The notes under the pieces were generated by a model. The model saw only the letters and a list, made by a program, of their open reading frames with translations. It made no database searches and was not told where the DNA came from. This document shows positions 19,963 through 44,094 of a stretch of 57,547 nt of DNA, piece after piece. Source of the DNA: Campylobacteraceae bacterium (lineage in GTDB: Bacteria; Campylobacterota; Campylobacteria; Campylobacterales; Sulfurovaceae); assembly GCA_027024155.1 (NCBI GenBank), contig JALVTE010000002.1, positions 1-57,547 of the forward strand, written 5' to 3'. Within the stretch, counting starts at the first letter, position 1, and every line of letters begins with the position of its first letter. The translations under genes were made by a program, and so were the position numbers.

Positions 19963-20084
19963 AAGCTTAGAGCAGAGAGCCAAGAGCAGAGAGCTAAATT
20001 TGTGGCTTCGCCTTTTATTTAAAAAGAAGCAAAGCTACCTTGTTAGCTCTATGCTCTATGCTCTAAGCCCTCAGCTCTCAGCTC
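19963..20084. repeat. Heptad-arm palindromic element K2 (GAGC type)
   Basis: The left arm (19963-19997) is one AAGCTTA followed by four GAGCNNA units. The right arm (20043-20084) is six units of TNNGCTC or close variants. Both arms have changed A to G relative to K1, K3 and K4, so pairing is kept. The core (about 19998-20042) contains TGTGGCTTCGCCTTTTAT and GAAGCAAAGCTAC, shared with K3 and K4. The right arm provides the C-terminal GAES residues and stop of the TtcA-like gene. Confidence 0.88.
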
Positions 20085-22789: not shown

Positions 22790-22804
22790 TGTATATCCTT
22801 TCTT

Positions 22805-23072
22805 AACCTGAATTTAGTGGAATACTATGTTCTCAAAAGCTTAAAAATAGATAAGATTTTTCAAATCAAATTTGCAGGACTAGCTTAAGCTAATTCAAAA
22901 ATTTTATTTGGTAAAGATTGTCTATTTTTAAACTTCCCTTCGGGTTTTACGAGGTTTCCCATATACTTAGACATATTTTTTCGAATTAGCACAGCTAGTC
23001 CTTCAAAAATATGTCGTTGTCTATGAAAAACCTCGTGAAATTGAGAACATAATATTCCACTAAACTCAGGTT
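22805..23072. repeat. 268-bp element with 32-bp terminal inverted repeats and two loop-complementary hairpins
   Basis: Termini 22805-22836 and 23041-23072 are inverted copies matching at 30 of 32 positions. Inside, a left hairpin (stem 22837-22853 with 22919-22935, 15 of 17) carries an apical loop with GGACTAGCT and GCTAATTC. A right hairpin carries ACGAGGTTT/AAACCTCGT and GACATATTTTT/AAAAATATGTC stems and a loop with GAATTAGC and AGCTAGTCC. The two loops are complementary over about 17-18 bases, although the stems differ. A CCCTTCGGG mini-hairpin joins them. No transposase ORF is present, so it is MITE-like or a structured RNA. Confidence 0.85.
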
Positions 23073-23075
23073 ATT

Positions 23076-23187
23076 AAGCTTAAAGCTAAAAGCATAAAGC
23101 CAAAAGCTGATTGTGTGGCTTCTCCACTTTTAATAAAAGCAAAGCTACATTGTTAGCTTTTGGCTTTGTGCTTTGAGCTTTCAGCTT
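23076..23187. repeat. Heptad-arm palindromic element K3
   Basis: The left arm (23076-23110) is five AAGCNNA heptads with NN = TT, TA, AT, CA, TG. The right arm (23153-23187) is five inverse heptads. The core includes TGTGGCTTCTCCACTTTTAAT and AAGCAAAGCTAC. When the arms pair, the first variable base of each heptad matches its partner in all five positions. The right arm is translated as the C-terminal tail of the gene ending at 23153. Confidence 0.9.
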
Positions 23188-25009: not shown

Positions 25010-25124
25010 AAGCCAAAAGCTTAAAGCTTAAAGCTTAAAGCCAAATTTGTGGCTTCGCCTTTTATCAAAAAAGAAGCGAAGCTACTTTGTTAGCTTTGAG
25101 CTTTCTGCTTTGAGCTTTTAGCTT
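25010..25124. repeat. Heptad-arm palindromic element K4 in the ccoI leader
   Basis: The left arm (25010-25044) is AAGCCAA, three AAGCTTA, AAGCCAA. The right arm (25090-25124) is five TNNGCTT units. The core carries TGTGGCTTCGCCTTTTAT and AAAGAAGCGAAGCTAC, which pair with each other. It ends 15 nt before the ccoI start, so any transcript from a promoter near 24990 (TAAAAT) would carry this hairpin as its 5' leader. Confidence 0.9.
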
Positions 25125-25139
25125 CCCAAAGGGAAATTC

Positions 25140-43793: not shown

Positions 43794-44094
43794 GGTGCCC
43801 TCCAATACCATTAAGTTAAGAGTAAAATATCCATTTATTGGCATAAAGATTAAAGATTAAAGATTAAAGCTTAAAGCAGAAAGCAAAAAAATTATCTGCC
43901 TCCTGTCATCCCCAACAGAAAAGGGGATCCACGATTTTAAATGCTTAAAAGTTAAAATAGGACTTTTATAGCAGTTCAAACCATGGATTCCCACTTTCGC
44001 GGGAATGACGAGGTGGTTAGCTTTTGGCTTTGTGCTTTAAGCTTTGTACATTTTATGGATATAAAATCCTTAATTTAATGGCATTGGTGGTGCC
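43794..44094. repeat. Concentric composite element E5
   Basis: This is the best example of nesting. The outer ends (43794-43837 and 44050-44094) are inverted CCATTAAGTTAAG-type repeats. Next inwards are 7-nt units: AAAGATT three times, AAAGCTT, AAAGCAG on the left (about 43846-43884), and TTAGCTT, TTGGCTT, TGTGCTT, TAAGCTT on the right (about 44019-44046). In the centre are two facing dRS3-like units (about 43903-43932 and 43982-44009). It lies between ribE and the cupin gene. Confidence 0.88.

Follow-up and report, generated by a model that had tools for sequence, protein, structure and literature searches.

A mobile, non-coding MITE-like element with two conserved folded arms in Campylobacterota and other bacteria

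The window (the whole stretch of DNA analyzed here, 57,547 nt) contains a MITE-like element with long terminal inverted repeats and two hairpin arms. Downstream of the element, on the minus strand, lies a gene encoding an acyl transferase domain (fabD-like); the other neighbor is a short ORF without a Pfam match. The original prediction placed the element and its two hairpins correctly (Table 1), and its near-perfect terminal repeats are 33 nt long with 31/33 nt matching. As it also stated, there is no ORF, and nothing between the arms encodes a protein. Two covariance models were used to find related sequences: R1, a model of the apical hairpin, and R2, a 72 nt model of the B arm. R1 covers only the apical part, is AT-biased, and misses GC-rich carriers; R2 was built for this reason, with a training set from Campylobacterota only. 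A second, unrelated long palindromic repeat (AAGCTTAAAGCTAAAAGC...) adjoins the element at 23076-23187. Pieces of this repeat recur often in the genus and are found in the window at ~19963-20076, 25017-25125, and 44016-44045. In the congener G004, the interior of the AAGCTTAAAGCTAAAAGC repeat is inverted relative to the window.

Table 1. Features of the element in the window and the evidence for each.
Feature	Position	Strand	Evidence
Complete mobile element (266 bp), with TA on either side	22806..23071		Site empty in G004 and G005; four more full copies
Left flanking TA (duplicated target or terminal bases of the element)	22804..22805		Sequence; 13/13 G261 elements flanked by TA
Right flanking TA	23072..23073		Sequence; G261 elements; congener comparison
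Left terminal inverted repeat, 5′ strand of helix P1	22804..22836	+	33 nt; 94% complementarity with the right repeat
Right terminal inverted repeat, 3′ strand of helix P1	23041..23073	-	Complementarity to the left repeat
Arm A (motif-forward strand is +)	22837..22935	+	R1 match 22864-22909 (+), 68.3 bits
AAGAT in the tandem G.A loop of arm A (5′ side), opposite AAGATTG at 22914-22920	22853..22857	+	Consensus of the A-arm class
Apical motif of arm A, GCA-GGA-C-TAGC-TTAA-GCTA-A-TTC-AA	22874..22898	+	R1 match; pair counts
Mini-hairpin CCC-TTC-GGG between the arms	22936..22944	+	Sequence and fold
Arm B (motif-forward strand is -)	22945..23040	-	R2 match 22957-23028 (-), 50.9 bits; R1 match 22970-23014 (-), 60.8 bits
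Apical motif of arm B, GAA-GGA-C-TAGC-TGT-GCTA-A-TTC-GA (- strand sequence)	22981..23004	-	R1 match
AACGAC in the internal loop of arm B (one side; rotated form B1)	23013..23018	-	Sequence; consensus of the B1 class

The element is predicted to fold strongly both as DNA (-61 kcal/mol, z -10.4 vs. shuffled sequence) and as RNA (-105.7 kcal/mol, z -13.8 vs. shuffled sequence). The RNA minimum is a four-way junction of the terminal-repeat stem, arm A, the CCC-TTC-GGG mini-hairpin, and arm B. In the two hairpins of the window copy the arms are 81% complementary, and an inverted repeat of 15 nt (93%) runs from loop to loop (22871-22885/22993-23007). No terminator-like site was seen in the window element and promoter-like matches occur only at chance level. 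A terminator or promoter role was rejected, as nothing exceeds chance.

Further copies are common. The 2.15 Mb draft genome from which the window comes carries five full copies, including the one described here, at 79-100% identity, and in two of the five the interior has the opposite orientation with respect to the terminal repeats. R1 finds 38 hairpins in this genome with an E-value cut-off of 0.1, and 35 have E-values below 1e-4. Two congeners, G004 and G005, have no element at the corresponding intergenic site. The element was therefore either inserted in its own lineage or lost cleanly from those of G004 and G005, and insertion is favored because many near-identical copies exist elsewhere. 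The complete genome of a relative, G261, has 11 copies that are ~96-99% identical, and two that have diverged. These elements are thus short and non-coding, possess terminal repeats (median match 28/30 in 91 elements), and have dispersed copies and empty sites, as is typical of MITEs. The element is mobile and multicopy, and it inserts at new sites. The MITE-like element that had been proposed is supported by these findings. The other proposal, a structured RNA tied to fabD, is not supported, because two relatives have no element at this very locus. A fabD-specific RNA or riboswitch was rejected on account of the empty sites and the lack of an Rfam match: in Rfam 15 no element scored above the gathering cut-off, and permissive scans gave only sub-threshold matches of miRNA or antisense type.

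All 13 of the G261 elements inspected have TA on both sides. Element-free sites could be aligned in many congeners of G261, but these are diverged and AT-rich, and TA is self-complementary, so that the TA flanks fit either a 2 bp duplication or none and do not prove target duplication. The family with GGGCACC terminal repeats shows apparent 4 bp duplications instead (TTAA, TTTA, TATA, TAAA), and thus more than one enzyme may act across the families. The elements are mostly intergenic and near gene ends. Sites between divergent genes are fewer, and gene orientation around the elements shows no other preference. Core-less palindromes of 53-54 bp consist of the two terminal repeats only and are possibly deletion products of full elements. 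Examples of core-less palindromes (~43-54 bp), from two terminal-repeat families, are G000:C16:22386-22438, G009:C57:13087-13129, and G261:C1:1844676-1844729.

The fold is better conserved than the sequence that forms it. In the apical hairpin 91.7% of cells are paired and 14 of the 17 pairs have changed on both sides, a level reached by 0/500 shuffles. The B arm is 95.0% paired with 15/19 pairs compensatory, and its covariation is 0.644, vs. 0.215 in shuffled alignments and at most 0.14 in slid controls. Among pattern matches from GTDB the apical stem is fully paired in 87/88; the inner two pairs of this stem were left free in the scan, and by our own calculation random bases would pair there in ~14%. 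Departures from Watson-Crick pairing are also kept. On the motif strand a G.U pair is present in 174/238 distinct arms and a C.A mismatch in 193/238, and a GNA/RA internal loop is likewise fixed. B arms have an additional AAGGC/AACG loop, which is replaced by a tandem G.A loop in A arms. In the inner stem, G.T on the motif strand (93) exceeds A.C (39), which indicates that the motif strand is the one that functionally folds, i.e., the top strand in arm A and the bottom strand in arm B. Each strand of the element therefore has one motif-forward arm, adjacent to its own 5′ end.

The overall dimensions are similarly constant. The arms are spaced 102-109 nt apart (84 pairs), 85/91 two-armed elements are 266-275 bp long, and a mini-hairpin of the CCC-N3-GGG type is matched in 82/88. 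The terminal repeats of the 91 two-armed elements, in contrast, fall into 19 sequence groups. From these sequence comparisons, helix lengths, internal loops, and the apical motif are kept while the sequences of the helices change, including those of the terminal repeats. The stems of the two hairpins had been described as unrelated. Their sequences do differ, but both follow one design in length, internal loops, and apical motif.

The apical loops were described as complementary, and this complementarity is real and not due to chance. Both arms carry the same apical motif, GNA-GGA-C-[4 bp]-loop-[4 bp]-A-TTC-RA, one on the + strand and the other on the - strand, and it is this motif that the covariance model detects ~35 times in the genome. 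Complementary loops follow directly from this arrangement, as each arm holds an inverted copy of the other's motif. A kissing interaction, by which the two loops would keep the hairpins of one strand together, is suggested by the 15 nt match in the window copy. It is not borne out by the other copies. In 88 distinct two-armed elements the 4 bp apical stem is fully paired within the arm in 91% of arms, but full complementarity from arm to arm is seen in only 21.6%, vs. 21.4% when arms are re-paired at random. In the C42 copy, for example, the two arms differ (TAGC and TAAC), and single-armed elements occur as well. Loss of loop complementarity in other copies is the result that the original prediction had named as refuting it. 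Kissing loops are ruled out on these comparative grounds, and we consider such an interaction extremely improbable.

The motif is present in 24/60 relatives and, with a strict cut-off, in 30/298 Campylobacterota genomes. A pattern scan of GTDB returned at least 120 stretches, where by our own estimate ~15 would be expected by chance. The matches listed are from Campylobacterota, Gammaproteobacteria, one Saprospiraceae MAG, and one Muiribacterium MAG; misbinning of the MAG-based records is possible, but the matches also include isolates (Sulfurovum sp. AR, Thiohalobacter thiocyanaticus Hrh1, and Marinobacter zhanjiangensis). R2 detected a single arm in the Clostridia isolate Subdoligranulum variabile (E-value 4e-12), and its matches in Pseudoalteromonas and Catenovulum are likewise single arms. 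Gammaproteobacterial elements, which had been retrieved through their first arm alone, match R2 with both head-to-head arms, the second one in the opposite orientation. Some of the loci tested with R2 were fetched by the apical pattern, and the independent evidence consists of these second arms and of the S. variabile, Pseudoalteromonas, and Catenovulum matches. R2 had no match in six viral control loci.

The S. variabile sequence (L381, 2990-3060) is a stand-alone B arm in which an A-T pair replaces the C.A mismatch. The single-armed relatives on secondary replicons of Pseudoalteromonas (L388, L390-L392, at ~1000-1600) have the ends AACCTGAAC...GTTCAGGTT, which resemble the AACCTGAG ends of the window family, and occur at up to 15 places per replicon. 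Plasmid matches come only from large secondary replicons, apart from an unannotated record. Pattern scans of phages gave no match, and those of viral contigs gave either none or six matches that lack the arm fold and are apparently due to chance. A viral or phage origin was rejected on this basis. E. coli had no match. We found no description of the element in the open-access literature; one in a subscription journal could have escaped these searches.

A partner transposase with matching ends, which the original prediction called for, was sought and not found. Among the paired arms there is no form that carries an ORF between them, i.e., no autonomous form. No IS element with the same ends was detected either, as only elements, core-less palindromes, or single ends were seen. 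In G261, for example, copies of the terminal repeat are elements, one 54 bp core-less form, or single ends, and never a long IS element. The transposase families searched were DDE_3 and Y1. DDE_3 (IS630-type) had no match in six carriers, in a search that worked in control genomes, and an IS630-type partner was rejected. Y1 transposases are found in 10/14 carriers and in 8/12 genomes without matches, and no Y1 gene was found in G170, G244, G062, and G023, all of which carry copies. A Y1/RAYT partner was rejected, as Y1 and carriers are not associated.

The element works like a bacterial MITE, and there is a real chance that it is a separate class. The explanation we favor, with about even confidence, is that it is a widespread non-coding, non-autonomous MITE-like element that is recognized in mobilization by its folded strand and not by its end sequences. 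We put forward more tentatively that it forms a shape-recognized class of mobile elements of its own, spread over several phyla and moved by a putative enzyme. The sequence is built so that either strand can fold into a four-way junction of P1 (~32 bp), the two long arms, and the CCC-N3-GGG mini-hairpin. The arms could be exposed by cruciform extrusion or on single-stranded DNA at the replication fork, and a putative structure-recognizing enzyme, supplied in trans, would bind the folded arms at both ends. Movement would then occur as DNA and mainly target TA sites. The two arms, placed head to head, would represent the two ends of the element, which accounts for the complementary loops without kissing. 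As new copies result from movement, features that are kept across phyla most likely serve movement. One functional arm by the 5′ end of each strand fits the two equivalent ends of a DNA element and a folded DNA. Of the DNA structure used in transposition that had been suggested, the mobility and the conserved fold are established, and the use in transposition is our leading guess.

Covariation alone does not separate folded DNA from folded RNA, and a function of the fold in RNA is the main competing explanation. The elements would move by ordinary DNA transposition and be read through passively from either side; whichever strand is transcribed, the head-to-head arrangement would place a functional arm first after the 5′ terminal repeat. 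The arm would bind a conserved RNA-binding protein or nuclease, control the stability or continuation of host transcripts, and thereby make the insertions tolerable. The strand-specific G.U wobble, the tandem G.A, and the other non-canonical loops do resemble RNA motifs, the z-score of the RNA fold is -13.8, and the position of the elements, mainly intergenic and near gene ends, would suit such a role. NEMIS transcripts, moreover, have been proposed to be substrates of RNase III (PMC2229807). However, every transcript would contain one proper and one reversed arm, and gene orientation shows no preference apart from fewer divergent sites. A host-side function would also hardly hold the loops constant across phyla in copies derived from transposition. 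We consider an RNA function unlikely on balance.

Less probable still, and in our view quite doubtful, is that these are ordinary MITEs derived from IS elements. Several transposases would recognize the terminal repeats only, and the arms would be carried along as old palindromes kept complementary by template-switch correction and not by selection. Palindrome correction is a known mutational process, the flanks of TA or 4 bp are as in IS630/IS5-type elements, and several groups of terminal repeats exist. Plain correction is disfavored since it would erase mismatches, yet the C.A, G.U, GNA/RA, and AAGG/AACG features are kept. Nor would it account for the constant total length and arm spacing, or for the same core inside unrelated terminal repeats, and the DDE_3 gene was not found in six carriers.

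Among known elements, Correia/NEMIS, ERIC, and RUP are bacterial MITEs with TA ends (PMC2229807). The present element is like them in being small, non-coding, mostly intergenic, and strongly folding, with terminal inverted repeats and TA ends. It differs in its length of ~270 bp (theirs is 100-200), and in its two internal arms and mini-hairpin with a fixed four-way layout. The non-canonical loops, and not the terminal repeats, are what is common across phyla, and a partner IS element was not found. CIR repeats of Caulobacter and relatives also have two long hairpin arms, a linker, and a conserved structure, but they are ~110 bp long and arranged around GANTC methylation sites (PMC2229807), whereas the apical motif of the element described here is another one and its terminal repeats form a closing stem. 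Like REPINs and REP/RAYT systems (PMC3116915, PMC3733652), it combines two inverted hairpin units into one dispersed non-coding unit; unlike them, it is much longer and has long terminal repeats, and several carriers are without a Y1 transposase. CGTC-tagged repeats have been reported from Sulfurovum (PMC3733652), and a GTCATTCCCCCGAAAGAGGGAATC-type palindrome at L015 1415-1445 resembles them. By inspection of the consensus sequences alone, a GTAG foot is not visible in the arms. Integron attC sites act as a folded single strand, with a structure that is conserved more than its sequence. The element shares this conservation of folded structure over sequence, but it is a dispersed two-armed element with terminal repeats outside of cassette arrays, and no paired R boxes were recognized in it by eye.

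Recognition of mobile elements usually depends on their end sequences. In this family those sequences fall into many groups, yet the fold, the length, and a few non-canonical loops are constant across distant bacteria, which points to recognition of shape and, in turn, to a putative mobilizing or binding partner. R1 and R2 together provide a direct handle for finding carriers and, by co-occurrence, this partner. The elements are numerous between genes, and they may affect expression there.
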